A DNA stretch of 64,000 nt from Allomuricauda sp. (GTDB lineage Bacteria > Bacteroidota > Bacteroidia > Flavobacteriales > Flavobacteriaceae): contig RHLF01000002.1 in assembly GCA_003712125.1 (NCBI GenBank), forward strand, positions 248,001 through 312,000, in the 5' to 3' direction. The position numbers were made by a program, and so were the translations under genes. The first letter of the stretch is position 1; each line of letters starts with the position of its first letter. The notes beneath the pieces are model-generated. The model did not search any database. It saw only the letters and a list, made by a program, of their open reading frames with translations, and was not told the origin of the DNA. This document shows, one piece after another, positions 87 to 39,959 of this stretch.

Positions 87-110
87 ACACCCCTGTTGAT
101 AAGGGGGTGT
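87..110. promoter_or_regulatory. Inverted repeat CCCC-N10-GGGG upstream of glnN
   Basis: Imperfect palindrome ACACCCC...GGGGTGT with exactly 10 bases between the C4 and G4 blocks, centred about 82 bases before the glnN start. The same C4-N10-G4 arrangement occurs ahead of glnK-amtB (27924-27945). Seen in sequence: the symmetry and spacing. Inference: an operator for a nitrogen-responsive regulator. It has no T-run after it, so it is not an obvious terminator. Confidence 0.45.
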
Positions 111-180: not shown

Positions 181-2367
181 ATGCCAAAAGCAAGATTTGA
201 GGCTCTGGGAAACACCGGAAATACTGGAATAACAGAAATTGAAGAGACTGTAAAGCGGTCAGAACTGTTCGCGAAACTGGTTTTTAATGATGAGAAAATG
301 TTGCGGTTTTTGACCGATGAGGCCTACTCGAAGGTGAAATCTGCCATTTTTTCGGGCAGCAAGATCGATCGTAAGATCGCCGATCAAGTGGCCGAAGGAA
401 TGAAGGCCTGGGCGCTATCTATGGGTGCCACCCATTATACGCATTGGTTTCAACCACTGACAGGGGCAACAGCTGAAAAACACGATGCCTTTTTTGATTT
501 GTTGCCAGATGGTCGTGCCATGGAAAAATTTGGTGGTGGGCAACTGGTTCAGCAAGAGCCCGATGCTTCCAGTTTTCCAAGTGGAGGACTTCGAAATACC
601 TTCGAAGCAAGAGGGTATACCGCATGGGATCCGACTTCACCGGCATTTATCTACAAAACGACACTTTGTATCCCTACCATTTTTGTGTCCTACACCGGAG
701 AGGCATTGGACAATAAGGCACCTTTGTTACGCGCCTTAAACGCTGTTGATGAAGCGGCCACGGGAGTGGCACAGTACTTTGACAAGAACGTTCGAAAGGT
801 AAATGCCACCTTAGGATGGGAACAAGAATATTTCTTGGTTGATAAGGCCTTGGCACAATCACGCCCCGATATTTTAATCACAGGACGCACATTATTGGGC
901 ACGGCTCCTGCCAAAGGGCAACAACTTGACGATCATTATTTTGGTGTCATTCCGCCGCGGGTATTGGGTTTTATGAGTGATTTGGAAAAACAGTGTACGC
1001 AACTTGGCATACCTGTTAAGACTCGACATAATGAAGTGGCGCCCAACCAATACGAACTTGCTCCTGTCTTTGAAGAGGCCAACCTCTCGGTGGATCATAA
1101 TCTGTTATTGATGGATGTGATGGATGAAGTAGCGTCGAAACATGGTTTTTCTGTTTTATTTCATGAAAAGCCTTTTGCCGGTATCAATGGTTCTGGCAAG
1201 CATAACAACTGGTCCTTGGCCACCGATACGGGGGTCAACTTGCTCAGCCCGGGCAAAACGCCAATGAAGAACCTTCAGTTTTTGACCTTTTTCGTGAATA
1301 CGATCAAGGCTGTGGATACCTATGAAGAATTGTTACGATCATCAATAGCATCGGCAGGAAATGACCATCGTTTGGGAGCCAATGAGGCACCACCGGCCAT
1401 TATCTCCATTTTTATCGGCCAGCAACTCGCCAATGTTTTGGATGAACTGGAAGGGGTTTCCAAAGGAAAACTCTCGCCAGAGGAAAAGACAGAATTAAAG
1501 TTGAATGTAGTAGGTAAAATTCCCGAGATATTGGTTGACAATACCGATCGCAACCGCACCTCTCCCTTTGCCTTTACCGGAAATAAATTTGAGATCAGGG
1601 GGGTAGGTTCCGGGATGAACTGTGCCAAGCCCATGACCGTTTTGAATACCATTGTAGCCAAGCAATTAAACGACTTCAAAAAGGAGGTGGACGCCTTGAT
1701 TGAAAAAAAGAAACTCAAAAAGGACGAAGCGGTATTTAATGTGTTGCGCGAATACATTAAGACCTCAAGAAGAATCCGATTTGATGGCGATGGGTACAGC
1801 AATGAATGGGCTGAAGAAGCGCGGCGAAGAAAACTGAGCAACAACCAGAATACTCCTGAGGCATTACAGATACTTATGGCCAAAGATACCATAGACCTCT
1901 TTGAAGAGATTGAGGTGCTCAGCGAGGCGGAATTAAAAGCACGTCAAGAGGTTGAATTGGAGGCGTATGCGCTTCACATCCAAATTGAAGGTCGCATTTT
2001 GGGCGAGATGGTCTATAACCATATTATTCCAGCGGCGATAGCCTACCAAAATGTTTTGCTTGAAAATGTCAACGGCTTAAAGGAAGTATATGGGGCAGCA
2101 CACAAAAACATTACCGAGGCACAGCTAAATATCATTGAAAAAATAGGTGGACATATTAACACCGCAAAAAAGTTAACCGATGCCATGGTAGAAGCCCGCA
2201 AAAGCGCCAATGGCATGGCAACGGCGAGCCGCAAGGCACAGGCCTATTGTACCAAGGTGAAACCATATTTCGAAGATATTAGGGTGGCCTGTGACAAACT
2301 TGAAAAATTGGTAGCCGACGAGAAATGGCCGTTCACCAAGTACCGAGAGTTGTTATTCAGCAAATAA
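181..2367 (+). CDS. glnN: Type III glutamine synthetase (GSIII)
   Basis: ATP-dependent condensation of ammonium with glutamate to glutamine, the entry point of nitrogen assimilation in the cytosol. The 728-residue length is the usual size of GSIII and far longer than GSI or GSII. Catalytic-core signatures are visible at about residues 399-406 (GANEAPPA) and 458-467 (NRTSPFAFTG); the last 250 residues are the helical C-terminal region typical of the family. The ATG at 181 follows an AT-rich leader holding the inverted repeat at 87-110, which resembles the one ahead of glnK-amtB, so joint nitrogen control is plausible (inference). Assignment is secure; the symbol glnN is the one commonly used for GSIII, although some annotations call it glnA. 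Confidence 0.96.
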   Translation: MPKARFEALGNTGNTGITEIEETVKRSELFAKLVFNDEKMLRFLTDEAYSKVKSAIFSGSKIDRKIADQVAEGMKAWALSMGATHYTHWFQPLTGATAEKHDAFFDLLPDGRAMEKFGGGQLVQQEPDASSFPSGGLRNTFEARGYTAWDPTSPAFIYKTTLCIPTIFVSYTGEALDNKAPLLRALNAVDEAATGVAQYFDKNVRKVNATLGWEQEYFLVDKALAQSRPDILITGRTLLGTAPAKGQQLDDHYFGVIPPRVLGFMSDLEKQCTQLGIPVKTRHNEVAPNQYELAPVFEEANLSVDHNLLLMDVMDEVASKHGFSVLFHEKPFAGINGSGKHNNWSLATDTGVNLLSPGKTPMKNLQFLTFFVNTIKAVDTYEELLRSSIASAGNDHRLGANEAPPAIISIFIGQQLANVLDELEGVSKGKLSPEEKTELKLNVVGKIPEILVDNTDRNRTSPFAFTGNKFEIRGVGSGMNCAKPMTVLNTIVAKQLNDFKKEVDALIEKKKLKKDEAVFNVLREYIKTSRRIRFDGDGYSNEWAEEARRRKLSNNQNTPEALQILMAKDTIDLFEEIEVLSEAELKARQEVELEAYALHIQIEGRILGEMVYNHIIPAAIAYQNVLLENVNGLKEVYGAAHKNITEAQLNIIEKIGGHINTAKKLTDAMVEARKSANGMATASRKAQAYCTKVKPYFEDIRVACDKLEKLVADEKWPFTKYRELLFSK

Positions 2368-21636: not shown

Positions 21637-22074
21637 ATGGACGATTTGAATTGGCGTATCTTAAAATGTCTTCAATCCAATGCCCGTGTATCTTTTTCTA
21701 GCATTGGTAGGGAGATTGGCCTTACACCCCCTGCTGTTGCGGAACGCGTTAAAAAAATGGAGGATATGGGGATTATTGAAGGGTATCGAACCGAGATTTC
21801 GCCGTTTTTGGTGGGTTATCAACTTAAGGCCGTGATCATGTTACGGGCTTTTGTTGGAAAGTTGAAGCCATTTTTGGATAAGGTGCGATCATTTGATGAA
21901 GTCAAAAACTGCTATCGAATTACGGGCAATGAAAATATTATCATGGAGGTGCTGTTGCGTGATCAGGAACATCTTGAGAAATTTATTGACGAATTAATCG
22001 TTTATGGAGAGTGTCGTACCCATATTATTTTGTCCAGTGTCGTTTCTGACACAGTAACCATGAAACCGAATTAG
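21637..22074 (+). CDS. Lrp/AsnC-family transcriptional regulator
   Basis: Winged-helix HTH at residues 3-60 (DDLNWRILKCLQSNARVSF, then LTPPAVAERVKKMEDMGII) followed by the RAM ligand-binding domain (about 70-140). 145 residues, typical for the family. Such proteins usually respond to amino acids and form octamers. It precedes an exported hydrolase gene by 64 bp, and its divergent neighbour is the helical protein at 21111; either could be a target (inference). The very AT-rich intergenic upstream (21516-21636) may hold its operators. Confidence 0.92.
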   Translation: MDDLNWRILKCLQSNARVSFSSIGREIGLTPPAVAERVKKMEDMGIIEGYRTEISPFLVGYQLKAVIMLRAFVGKLKPFLDKVRSFDEVKNCYRITGNENIIMEVLLRDQEHLEKFIDELIVYGECRTHIILSSVVSDTVTMKPN

Positions 22075-26205: not shown

Positions 26206-27459
26206 TTAATGTTGGTTCATTCTAAAGTCAGCATAGGCATCCATTCCATGTTCGTGGATATCAAGACCCTGCAATTCTTCTTGCTCAGATACCCTAAGCC
26301 CAATTGTTTTCTTCAACACAAATAGGATTAGGAATCCGAATACGGAACAAAAAACGGCTGCCGCTCCAACCCCTGCAAGCTGCACGAGGAATTGGTCCAA
26401 ACCAGCTTTGTCACCGAACAAGCCTACGGCCAAGGTTCCCCAAATACCACAAATCAAGTGCACAGCTACGGCCCCAACGGGATCATCAAGCTTCAATTTG
26501 TCGATTAATGCAACACCCAATACGATAATGATACCGGCCAGCAAGCCTATCATTACAGCTTCATTGGGTGACATAAGGTCTGCTCCTGCAGTAATTCCTA
26601 CCAATCCCCCCAAAATACCATTCAAGAACATGGTCAGGTCATAGTTTTTATAAAGGGCGGCCGACATTAAGAATGCCGATACACCTCCAGCAGCTGCGGC
26701 CAAAGAAGTTGTTACCAATACTAGGGAGGTTAATGCTGGATCTGCTGAAAGCACGGATCCCCCATTAAATCCAAACCAGCCCAACCATAAAATAAGCACA
26801 CCTGCAGCGGTGAGTGGAAGGTTGTGCCCGGGTATGGCTTTTGGCTTTCCATCCTCGCCAAATTTTCCAATTCGCGCTCCGAGAAGATAAATGGCAATCA
26901 ATGCTCCCCATCCTCCAACAGAATGTACCAAGGTTGAACCTGCAAAATCGTAGAATCCTTCGGCTTCACCATAGGCTAGTGACGATAAGAAACCGCCGCC
27001 CCACTGCCATGAACCTACGATTGGATAAACCAATCCGACATACAAAACGGTGAAGATCATAAAGCTTCCCAGTTTTATACGCTCAGCAACCGCCCCTGAA
27101 ACAATAGTGGCCGCAGTTGCTGCGAACATGCCTTGGAACAAAAAGTCTGTCCAATAGGTGTATCCTTCATTATAGGTTAAATCCAAAGCACCTTCGGGTG
27201 TCACTGGGGCTGGTAATCCAAAACCACCAAAACCAACATAGCCGTTGAAGTCACCTGGATACATCAAATTAAATCCACCTATATAATAAATAAGTAATCC
27301 CACTGTGATAATGAATACGTTTTTAAACAATATGTTCACTGTATTCTTCTGACGGGTAAGCCCGATCTCCAAAAAAGAGAATCCTAGGTGCATAAAAAAC
27401 ACCAATGCGGTACAGACCATCATCCATAAATTATTTGCTGTAAATAATCCTGCTTCCAT
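26206..27459 (-). CDS. amtB: Ammonium transporter
   Basis: Amt/Rh/MEP channel for ammonium in the inner membrane, about 11 transmembrane helices over 417 residues. The two pore histidines are visible in STLVHSVGGWG and VAVHLICGIWG, and the DFAGS and GFNGGS motifs are present. There is no cleavable signal peptide; the chain starts MEAGLFTANNLWMM. It follows glnK by 27 bp, the classic PII-Amt pair, in which GlnK blocks the channel when nitrogen is plentiful. Confidence 0.96.
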   Translation of the reverse strand: MEAGLFTANNLWMMVCTALVFFMHLGFSFLEIGLTRQKNTVNILFKNVFIITVGLLIYYIGGFNLMYPGDFNGYVGFGGFGLPAPVTPEGALDLTYNEGYTYWTDFLFQGMFAATAATIVSGAVAERIKLGSFMIFTVLYVGLVYPIVGSWQWGGGFLSSLAYGEAEGFYDFAGSTLVHSVGGWGALIAIYLLGARIGKFGEDGKPKAIPGHNLPLTAAGVLILWLGWFGFNGGSVLSADPALTSLVLVTTSLAAAAGGVSAFLMSAALYKNYDLTMFLNGILGGLVGITAGADLMSPNEAVMIGLLAGIIIVLGVALIDKLKLDDPVGAVAVHLICGIWGTLAVGLFGDKAGLDQFLVQLAGVGAAAVFCSVFGFLILFVLKKTIGLRVSEQEELQGLDIHEHGMDAYADFRMNQH

Positions 27460-27486
27460 ATCAATAATTTGTTAGTTAGTTTTTCT

Positions 27487-27825
27487 TTAGTTGATTCCAG
27501 CGCTGCCGCTCTCCTTAGTTCTTATTCGGTAAGCCTCGATAACATCGGACACGAAGATTTTACCATCACCCACATTGCCGGTAGATGCCGCTTCGAAAAG
27601 CGTGTTCACAGTGCGCTCCACAAAACTGTCTGAAACGACTATGACCAAATACCTGCGTTGTATATCGGTGGTACTGTAAGAAATACCGCGATATACATGT
27701 CCTTGTTTTTCATTTCCCACTCCGGTTACATCCCAGTAACTGAAGAAGTTTACCTCAATCTCATGAAGTGCTTTCTTGACCTCATCAAACTTGGATTTTC
27801 TAATGATTGCCTCAACTTTTTTCAT
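27487..27825 (-). CDS. glnK: PII signal-transduction protein
   Basis: 112-residue PII protein that senses 2-oxoglutarate, ATP and ADP and controls AmtB. The start (MKKVEAIIRKSKFDEVKKAL), the GDGKIFV segment and the C-terminal AYRIRT are typical. The T-loop is shortened: it reads KQGHVYRGISY where the enterobacterial loop has KGHTELYRGAEY, losing the Thr-Glu pair while keeping the YRG tyrosine that is the uridylylation site in other bacteria. First gene of the glnK-amtB unit, with a CCCC-N10-GGGG palindrome and a TAnnTTTG promoter element upstream. Confidence 0.95.
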   Translation of the reverse strand: MKKVEAIIRKSKFDEVKKALHEIEVNFFSYWDVTGVGNEKQGHVYRGISYSTTDIQRRYLVIVVSDSFVERTVNTLFEAASTGNVGDGKIFVSDVIEAYRIRTKESGSAGIN

Positions 27826-27850
27826 AATTCAGTTTGTTATTAATCGGGGC

Positions 27851-27858
27851 CAAATATA
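27851..27858 (-). promoter_or_regulatory. Promoter -7 element TATATTTG for glnK
   Basis: Exact TAnnTTTG match on the minus strand, 25 bases before the glnK ATG. No TTG is present at the normal -33 distance, which suggests dependence on an activator binding at the G-rich sites just upstream. Confidence 0.55.
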
Positions 27859-27884
27859 AATTATTGATGTATGTATTAAAAAAA

Positions 27885-27895
27885 TTAGGGGGTAT
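27885..27895. promoter_or_regulatory. Half-site TTAGGGGGTAT upstream of glnK
   Basis: Same word as the right arm of the palindrome at 27924-27945 (TTAGGGGTA) with one extra G, about 27 bases upstream of the glnK -7 element. Proposed as a second binding half-site (inference). Confidence 0.35.
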
Positions 27896-27923
27896 GTCCT
27901 TAATTTTTATCATATGAATAAAA

Positions 27924-27945
27924 TACCCCTAAAAAATTAGGGGTA
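27924..27945. promoter_or_regulatory. Palindrome TACCCCTAA-N4-TTAGGGGTA upstream of glnK-amtB
   Basis: Perfect 9-bp inverted repeat with a 4-base loop (CCCC-N10-GGGG core), about 110 bases before the glnK start. It shares core and spacing with the element upstream of glnN (87-110). The AT-only centre and lack of a following T-run on the minus strand argue for a protein-binding site rather than a terminator of crcB, though termination cannot be excluded. Confidence 0.5.
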
Positions 27946-28088
27946 TAAAATTTTAAAACTGTAATAAATTAATTATTGACAATTTTTAGCGAATAATAGT
28001 CCTGTTTTATTGAAAAAAATTTGATGAAAAGGGTAAAATGATACGATTAAATCAATGTTATTAACAAAAAGTTGATAAAATGTTAGCT

Positions 28089-28460
28089 TTAAGCAAGTTT
28101 AGAAAGCCATAGTCCTAAAAGGACAGCAAGAACGCCCAGGATCAAACTTGAGGCAATGTAAATGGTGAAGTTGATGTACTGTCCGGTCTTCAACAGTTCA
28201 TTTTGTTCAAGGGCGAATGCAGAGAAAGTGGTGAAGCCACCGCAAAAACCGGTAGCAAGTAAGAGCACATAATTCTGGGAGAGGGTATTTTCTTTAAGGG
28301 CGTACCCAAGAACAAAACCCATGATAAGGCAACCAAGCACATTGACCGTGAAGGTTCCCAGGTAAAAATTAGTAAAAAGTGGATTTAAATATTTTGAAAT
28401 AAGAAAACGTAGTGCGCTTCCAAGACCGCCCCCCAAAAAAACCAATAAAAACTGTTTCAT
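28089..28460 (-). CDS. crcB: CrcB/Fluc fluoride channel
   Basis: 123-residue, four-helix fluoride exporter that works as a dual-topology dimer. Motifs visible: GGGLGSALRFLISKYL, GTFTVNVLGCLIMGF and GFCGGFTTFSAFALE, containing the pore Asn and Phe residues. No fluoride riboswitch can sit directly ahead of it, because only 18 bases separate it from the small membrane-protein gene upstream; the two form an operon. Confidence 0.94.
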   Translation of the reverse strand: MKQFLLVFLGGGLGSALRFLISKYLNPLFTNFYLGTFTVNVLGCLIMGFVLGYALKENTLSQNYVLLLATGFCGGFTTFSAFALEQNELLKTGQYINFTIYIASSLILGVLAVLLGLWLSKLA

Positions 28461-28478
28461 GAACAGCTAAGGTATGAA

Positions 28479-28658
28479 CTATACCGCTTCTTTGTATTCG
28501 GTTTCTTGATATTGCCCTTCAAATAAATTGATATCTGATGCTTTGGCCATATCTTGAAGCGGCTTTTTTACAGAAGTTTTAAAGCCTTTGGTGCCAAAAA
28601 TCAAAAGCGTGGCGTTGCCTGCCAAAAGGACAAAAAGAATGGTTAAAAATGTGGTCAT
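28479..28658 (-). CDS. 59-residue single-pass membrane protein
   Basis: Begins MTTFLTILFVLLAGNATLLIF: one transmembrane helix at residues 4-22, then a cytosolic-type basic and polar tail ending QETEYKEAV. It has its own TAnnTTTG element 22 bases upstream (28680-28687) and precedes crcB by 18 bases. The membrane part aligns without gaps to two even shorter proteins at 53443 and 53593: Phe4, Ile7, Leu11, Leu12, Asn15 and Leu19 are identical in all three. No known family; possibly an accessory subunit of a membrane complex. Confidence 0.7.
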   Translation of the reverse strand: MTTFLTILFVLLAGNATLLIFGTKGFKTSVKKPLQDMAKASDINLFEGQYQETEYKEAV

Positions 28659-38795: not shown

Positions 38796-39959
38796 ATGTC
38801 AAGAATTTTAGTAATAGAAGATGAGTCTGCCATTCGCAGGGTGCTGGTCAAAATATTGACCGAAGAAAGTGACACCTACGAAGTTCTGGAGGCTGAAGAT
38901 GGATTAAAAGGTATAGAAGCCATCAAAAAGGAAGATTTTGACCTGGTACTATGTGATATTAAGATGCCCAAAATGGATGGTGTTGAAGTATTGGAAGCTG
39001 CCCGTAAAATAAAACCAGAAACTCCGTTTATCATGATATCGGGTCATGGTGATCTGGATACTGCGGTCAATACAATGCGCCTTGGAGCCTTTGATTATAT
39101 TTCAAAACCACCAGATCTGAATCGATTGCTTACCACGGTCCGCAATGCTCTGGATCGAAAAGAATTGGTTGTAGAGAATAAAATACTGAAGAAAAAGGTC
39201 AGTAAAAATTATGAGATGATTGGTGAGAGCAAAGAAATTTCGAACATCAAAGAGATGATTGAAAAGGTTGCCCCCACCGATGCCAGGGTATTGATTACAG
39301 GTTCCAATGGTACCGGGAAAGAATTAGTCGCCCACTGGTTGCACCAAAAAAGCCCAAGGTCTTCAGCCCCATTCATTGAGGTAAATTGTGCTGCCATCCC
39401 TTCTGAATTGATCGAAAGTGAGTTGTTTGGGCATGTTAAGGGCGCCTTTACCTCTGCTGTAAAAGACAGGGCTGGTAAATTCGAAACCGCCAACAAAGGG
39501 ACTATTTTTTTGGATGAAATTGGTGATATGAGTCTATCTGCTCAGGCCAAAGTACTTCGGGCCTTGCAGGAGAATAAAATATCAAGGGTAGGTTCTGACA
39601 AAGATATTAAGGTAGATGTTAGGGTCGTTGCAGCGACAAATAAGGATTTGAAAAAGGAAATCGCTGAAAATAAGTTTCGGGAAGACCTGTATCATAGGTT
39701 GGCGGTCATCTTGATAAAAGTGCCCTCGCTTAATGATAGAAGAGATGACATTCCGCTGTTGGTAGCTCATTTTTCTGGCCAAATAGCGGCTGAACAAGGA
39801 GCTGTACAAAAATCTTTTTCGAAAAAAGCAATCGAACTGCTCAAAGGTTACGATTGGACCGGCAATGTCCGAGAATTACGAAATGTAGTGGAACGCTTAA
39901 TTATATTGGGCGGAAAGGAAGTGACCGAAGAAGATGTCAAATTATTTGCCAGTAAGTGA
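38796..39959 (+). CDS. Sigma-54-dependent response regulator lacking a DNA-binding domain
   Basis: NtrC-type architecture cut short: receiver domain (1-115, phospho-acceptor Asp54 in VLCDIKMPKMDG) and AAA+ sigma-54 activator domain (about 140-375) with Walker A GSNGTGKE, the sigma-54 contact loop GAFTSA at 216-221 (canonical GAFTGA) and GTIFLDEIGDM. The chain ends at residue 387, soon after the GNVRELRN sensor II helix, so the Fis-type HTH of NtrC (usually about 80 further residues) is absent. It may activate sigma-54 promoters from solution. No histidine kinase is adjacent. The preceding barrel gene is 8 bases upstream. Confidence 0.93.
   Translation: MSRILVIEDESAIRRVLVKILTEESDTYEVLEAEDGLKGIEAIKKEDFDLVLCDIKMPKMDGVEVLEAARKIKPETPFIMISGHGDLDTAVNTMRLGAFDYISKPPDLNRLLTTVRNALDRKELVVENKILKKKVSKNYEMIGESKEISNIKEMIEKVAPTDARVLITGSNGTGKELVAHWLHQKSPRSSAPFIEVNCAAIPSELIESELFGHVKGAFTSAVKDRAGKFETANKGTIFLDEIGDMSLSAQAKVLRALQENKISRVGSDKDIKVDVRVVAATNKDLKKEIAENKFREDLYHRLAVILIKVPSLNDRRDDIPLLVAHFSGQIAAEQGAVQKSFSKKAIELLKGYDWTGNVRELRNVVERLIILGGKEVTEEDVKLFASK

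Follow-up and report, generated by a model that had tools for sequence, protein, structure and literature searches.

Do the two CCCC-N10-GGGG inverted repeats that stand ahead of nitrogen-assimilation genes in a 64,000-nucleotide stretch of Allomuricauda DNA (the window) mark a dedicated nitrogen operator, as originally predicted? An exact pattern scan of the 64 kb found the palindrome at the two predicted places and nowhere else, at 90-107 and 27926-27943 (dyads and half-sites are given without strand). The first belongs to a strong dyad, ACACCCCTGTTGATAAGGGGGTGT (87-110, with C4 at 90-93 and G4 at 104-107), that is also found in orthologous regions. It occupies the short gap between glnN (181-2367, plus strand), which encodes a type III glutamine synthetase (PF12437, PF00120 and PF18318), and a divergent gene with its start just outside the left edge of the window. 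The second belongs to a strong distal dyad, ATACCCCTAAAAAATTAGGGGTAT (27923-27946), ahead of glnK (27487-27825, minus strand; P-II protein, PF00543) and amtB (26206-27459, minus strand; ammonium transporter, PF00909). By number alone, two such sites are not significantly above chance: shuffles had a mean of 0.91, with two or more in 26 of 100, and the whole genome holds the pattern at 27 places compared with 14 for a reversed control. Because the count in the window is unremarkable, the finding depends on conservation. Other loci served to train a weight matrix, and when the whole window was scored with it, only these two sites reached 12 or more, with best scores of 21.8 bits (registers 89-90) and 29.2 bits (registers 27925-27927).

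Conservation was assessed at glnN (PF12437) and glnK (PF00543) loci from 40 genomes, of which 30 have glnN and 22 have P-II. The matrix was trained on 77 loci of named genomes, and a region was scored as positive if a site of at least 14 occurred within 250 bp upstream of the gene. Two loci from the same assemblies as test genomes (L086 and L087) were left out of training, one with less than 200 bases upstream (L010) was removed from the glnK test before counting, and the near-identical L067 and L068 were each counted. A dyad was found upstream of glnN in 25 of 30 loci, compared with 13 of 3000 shuffled regions, and upstream of glnK in 10 of 24 loci, compared with 10 of 2400. Among 581 control regions upstream of other genes in the fetched loci, none reached a score of 14. 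The motif is thus kept at orthologous glnN and glnK genes and is not equally frequent in other upstream regions, which supports the idea of a dedicated nitrogen operator. Five of the 30 glnN loci fell under the threshold (L041, L046, L054, L055 and L063). The 14 glnK loci that lack the dyad include five with tandem dyads ahead of a porin gene in the same cluster (L015, L016, L017, L024 and L025), three that are second P-II copies (L001, L003 and L004) and six without explanation. Altogether, 28 genomes are dyad-positive, 25 via glnN, two via glnK (G006 and G026) and one, G022, via the porin site.

The original prediction treated the single palindrome as the unit. The dyad is real, but the full element comprises two dyads 51-54 bp apart, one of which is often degenerate. 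In 29 of 35 regions obtained by family searches, with no selection on spacing, the next-best site lies 51-54 bp from the strong dyad, a count that takes in weak partners, the window's own included. We base the spacing claim on this set because a larger set of 103 regions contains loci chosen by spacing. The ald gene of L072 has further dyads upstream in the same register. Counting from the first C of the gene-proximal dyad, a TAnnTTTG -7 box follows after 33-37 bp in 45 of the 103 regions, where about one would be expected. This canonical spacing was seen in 24/40 glnK, 12/40 glnN, 9/20 porin and 0/3 ald regions; thus, glnN regions often deviate from it. The glnN loci of Bacteroides have the same dyads and the same -7 spacing. 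In 73 of the 103 regions, an A5 or T5 run occupies the middle of the spacer, upstream of the proximal dyad, and the centre of the dyad itself tends to an A or T tract.

The glnK promoter of the window follows this standard order. Past the distal dyad comes a gene-proximal half-site, TTAGGGGGTAT (27885-27895), at a distance of 51-52 bp, with its partner half missing (score -12.3), and then the putative -7 box, TATATTTG (27858-27851, minus strand), at the typical distance of ca. 33 bp past the C run of the half-site. Both the extra half-site on the promoter side and the lack of a -33 element had been noted, and both were confirmed, with the half-site occupying the position of the -33 box. The dyads belong to a promoter element that recurs at fixed spacing before the ammonium-assimilation genes of many Bacteroidota. 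This recurrence suggests that these genes share a nitrogen regulator.

At the left end of the window, the dyad had been assigned to a glnN leader. The site is present as described, but the region is divergent, and the other gene, just outside the window, resembles glutamine synthetase: its best NCBIfam match is GlnII (E 7e-118, but below the curated cut-off), and it has Pfam matches to Gln-synt_N/C. A putative -7 box for this GlnII-like gene, TATTTTTG (20-13, minus strand), lies 87 bp from the dyad, as in relatives; where GlnII-like genes are divergent from glnN, 16 of 19 regions have a -7 box at a distance of 86-87 bp from the strong dyad. This distance equals 53 plus 33-34 bp, i.e., the sum of the canonical spacings. 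The extra half-site had been reported for glnK only, but this region also has one, a degenerate and weak AGGGT (51-55; score -6.2) at a 52 bp register from the strong dyad. Toward glnN, no exact TAnnTTTG was found in the intergenic region of the window. Thus, the 90-107 site would suit the divergent GlnII-like gene better than glnN in its geometry, and the region is better named a shared glnII/glnN promoter.

Could such palindromes instead act in RNA, as terminators of transcription or as hairpins, e.g., of the crcB gene upstream of glnK? The glnK dyad does look terminator-like on the minus strand (one found, 0.1 expected) and it lies between crcB and glnK. However, of 283 sites, only 28% and 14% have complementary bases at the two innermost pairs of the dyad, below the 46% and 47% expected, and a centre that is not self-complementary argues against an RNA hairpin. 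Moreover, the sites occur in divergent promoters at a constant distance from the -7 box, and positions 27486-28500 gave no Rfam match up to E 1. We therefore regard this explanation as extremely improbable.

A tandem pattern search of a public collection of named genomes returned at least 116 stretches. Among the 116 matches listed, 79 lie no more than 450 bp from a nitrogen gene: 25 amtB plus glnK, 19 glnN, 13 porin plus gltB, eight ald, four porin, three a Gcw_chp-type membrane protein beside glnK, three glnK, two glnII plus glnN, one Gcw_chp plus gltB and one gltB. By record title, these 79 listed matches comprise 77 from Bacteroidota and two from a MAG labelled Chlorobiota. The other 37 of the matches listed comprise four from Bacteroidota (L106, L124, L174 and L177) and 33 from other or unlabelled groups. 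Of the four, L106, L124 and L174 have no nitrogen neighbour, and the L177 site lies at the end of its stretch beside a DUF5686 gene, a family that adjoins glnN in other Bacteroides. A strict tandem pattern run on 148 genomes gave 11 rows, corresponding to 10 distinct sites in eight genomes, and none in the reversed control; all 10 sites are at glnK, glnN/glnII, porin/gltB or ald. It was found in 7 of 15 genomes of the same family (the window's own included) and in one of two of the same order, with no matches in 20 genomes of the same class or 111 others of the same phylum. A looser pattern with up to three mismatches gave 142 forward hits in 40 genomes, barely over the 121 of the reversed control. 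Fifteen sites scored at least 14 in a set of 15 chosen stretches from 14 genomes (297,638 bases), and all but one of them (14 of 15) precede a nitrogen gene, although the matrix is not independent of these genomes. The shared site is thus concentrated at nitrogen-assimilation genes, as is typical of nitrogen-control operators.

The targets also include the genes of GlnII-like synthetase and alanine dehydrogenase as well as porin-amtB/gltB, and the ald gene of the window's own genome has a strong site of 27.4 bits (L035). The operator had been proposed for Flavobacteriia; it does occur there, but its range is wider and reaches Bacteroides and other Bacteroidales. gltB, one of the genes originally proposed for a motif scan, is supported by divergent porin/gltB loci, but the dyad close to gltB in the genome of the window (G000:C2:6410; L348 1502) is ambiguous. 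This is a strong single dyad (26.5) between gltB and an acyl-CoA dehydrogenase-like gene, named by eye. It lies just behind the stop of the latter gene and 275 bp from the -7 candidate of gltB, and for this reason it may be a terminator rather than an operator.

Several tandem dyads were seen in other surroundings. Those at 5066-5139 of L124 (an Alistipes MAG) and 6537-6608 of L174 (Hymenobacter) have no recognised nitrogen neighbour. Among the 33 matches from other or unlabelled groups, one Candidatus Kuenenia MAG carries the pattern on five contigs (L071, L091, L099, L111 and L155), again without nitrogen neighbours, and these copies are apparently a repeat family. In Bacteroides and one other MAG, a DUF5686 gene is divergent from glnN across the operator (L088 3632-5953; L083 4736-6937; L182; L177 5489-7699) and, given this arrangement, may belong to the regulon.

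Taken as a whole, we consider it probable (roughly 0.7) that Bacteroidota have a nitrogen-control regulon and that these sites are its operator, read by one putative DNA-binding protein that is most likely an activator. The site, its spacing, its position in the promoter and its target genes are drawn from sequence, from which we infer the dimer binding, the activation and the nitrogen signal. The protein, probably a dimer, would read dyads resembling TACCCCTA-N6-TAGGGGTA with an A/T-tract centre, and the spacing of ca. 53 bp, or five helical turns, would let two dimers sit on the same face of the helix. The gene-proximal dyad would stand in for the -33 element, 33-37 bp before the TAnnTTTG -7 box, and the protein bound there would most likely act as an activator touching RNA polymerase, with help from the distal dyad. 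When nitrogen is short relative to carbon, the glutamine synthetases, the P-II/ammonium transporter pair, glutamate synthase and alanine dehydrogenase would be turned on.

An activator is argued for because the -33 box has given way to the proximal dyad, which keeps a fixed distance from the -7 box. Activation is thus suggested by position, and a repressor sitting over the promoter is possible: two phased sites, one of which overlaps the promoter, would suit a loop that keeps the genes off when nitrogen is plentiful. With the -33 element replaced, however, a weak promoter would presumably remain after such a repressor leaves, and we consider repression doubtful.

The proposed nitrogen operator is consistent with physiological data from two other strains, compared here by gene set. 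In a study of Formosa B, the cluster of porin, ammonium transporter, P-II and glutamate synthase was seen on peptone only after addition of glucose or laminarin; the porin, undetectable on peptone alone, came to 10% riBAQ with both glucose and laminarin, and the adjoining nitrogen genes behaved alike (PMC6246565). Likewise, the excerpts of a study of Prevotella ruminicola describe amtB, glnK, glnN-2 and gltBD as responding together to ammonium, with fold changes of 69 (amtB), 46 (glnK) and 35 (glnN-2) upon altered ammonium supply; both limiting and non-limiting ammonium are named there as inducing (PMC5552732). These observations fit a nitrogen-responsive unit. No transcriptional regulator is named for these genes in the portions of PMC6246565 and PMC5552732 considered here.

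How does this element relate to the nitrogen operators of other bacteria? In cyanobacteria, the genes for glutamine synthetase, Amt and P-II are preceded by sites of the nitrogen-control activator NtcA, which substitute for the upstream promoter box, and the dyads described here are alike in occupying that position. The NtcA motif GTA-N8-TAC, however, is in neither window leader and in 6 of 121 dyad-bearing regions, compared with a shuffled mean of 8.4, and one genome (G033) carries dyads without a detected Crp-family gene. NtrC/sigma54 enhancers are paired dyads in helical phase ahead of glnA or glnK-amtB; the phased pairs before glnK-amtB are similar, but the NtrC core and a strict sigma54 (-24/-12) pattern were each found in 0/121 regions, a loose sigma54 form was found in 6/121 (6.2 in shuffles), and a TAnnTTTG -7 box is present instead. 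Thus, the original prediction that the operator is distinct from NtcA and NtrC sites is supported, with both patterns absent from the window leaders and not enriched over shuffles. GlnR and TnrA of Firmicutes also bind dyads with an A/T centre ahead of glutamine synthetase and amtB-glnK, a likeness in both site and targets, but TGTNA-N7-TNACA is in 0/2 window leaders and 5/121 regions, a small excess over the shuffled mean of 0.6. The Crp-family regulator Cur/BT4338 of Bacteroides binds a 22 bp dyad, and some Bacteroides loci have a Crp-family gene after glnN; the consensus of Cur, however, is TATGTT...AACATA, as given in PMC6989115, and the core TATGTT-N4-AACATA is in none of the 121 regions. 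In the open PMC literature, we found no description of this operator or of any nitrogen operator or regulator in Bacteroidota, which form a major phylum in the gut and in algal blooms. The proposed nitrogen operator has a site, a spacing and a promoter position of its own. A fragment of ca. 100 bp with two dyads would serve as bait for the regulator, whose targets in Bacteroides and marine flavobacteria are predicted by the sequence of the element.

Which protein reads the dyads was addressed through gene content. Crp-type promoters, with a site over the -33 region and a second site five turns upstream, resemble the layout seen here, and HTH_Crp_2 exceeds its cut-off in 27 of the 28 dyad-positive genomes; an NtcA-like activator of this family would use the promoter-proximal site and a second one upstream. 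The exception, however, is G033 (92% complete), which has strong tandem dyads, no cNMP-binding match and no HTH_Crp_2 over the cut-off. The Crp-type gene beside Bacteroides glnN is presumably Cur/BT4338, the consensus of which differs, as noted above. Crp/Cur was disfavoured on these two grounds, the different motif and the lack of a detected Crp gene in G033, and we hold a Crp-family regulator to be unlikely.

Enhancer-binding proteins of the sigma54 type, including NtrC-like ones, read X3/4-N10-X3/4 dyads, and their domains were matched in 40/40 genomes, G033 included. The promoters, however, carry TAnnTTTG and are not of the sigma54 type, with the loose pattern no more frequent than in shuffles; such a protein was rejected as a very improbable regulator. 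Some MerR-family sites have the form ACCC...GGGT, and a small MerR-family protein (ca. 110 amino acids; 39/40 genomes) could be an analogue of GlnR/TnrA. MerR_1 was found in all 28 dyad-positive genomes, as were the sigma54-activator domains, and there is a weak NCBIfam match, far under the cut-off, to a TnrA-type model. Against this, both kinds of domain are present in most dyad-negative genomes (MerR in 11 of 12 without a detected dyad), the MerR gene lies in a non-nitrogen block in the five loci read, and its own loci have no site scoring at least 15 (best 14.4 in 30 loci), so that we rate it as rather improbable. A GerE/LuxR-type regulator was also considered and disfavoured: the GerE domain is in 27 of 28 dyad-positive genomes and was not found in G033 (92% complete). 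The presence of Lrp genes close to both ald and glnK made Lrp an appealing candidate, but Lrp/AsnC was rejected since the dyad-positive genomes G030 and G036 (99% complete) and G033 (92%) have no PF01037 match. Thus, gene content argues against Lrp and, less strongly, against Crp and GerE. No tandem dyad was found at 110 Crp, Lrp and enhancer-protein loci, where the best single sites scored 16.1 and 13.5, and 20 further stretches with Crp-type candidates had no site of 12 or more.

We tentatively propose, at a little less than even odds, that one ancient nitrogen regulator of Bacteroidota, from a family not known for nitrogen control (not NtrC, NtcA or Lrp), reads phased C4-N10-G4 dyads that replace the -33 element of a primary-sigma promoter. 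Such a protein would unite both glutamine synthetases, P-II/AmtB, glutamate synthase and alanine dehydrogenase phylum-wide.

Some regulator-type genes in the vicinity were also recorded. Lrp/AsnC-type genes occur near the glnK cluster in the window (21637-22074, plus strand) and near ald in a relative (L356 8812-9261, minus strand). The window also encodes, at 38796-39959 (plus strand), a receiver plus AAA+ "sigma54 activator" with GAFTSA instead of GAFTGA and no C-terminal DNA-binding domain by Pfam. Such a receiver/AAA+ gene lies 7-13 kb from glnK in nine of the genomes listed (G000, G002, G003, G004, G007, G014, G021, G023 and G024).
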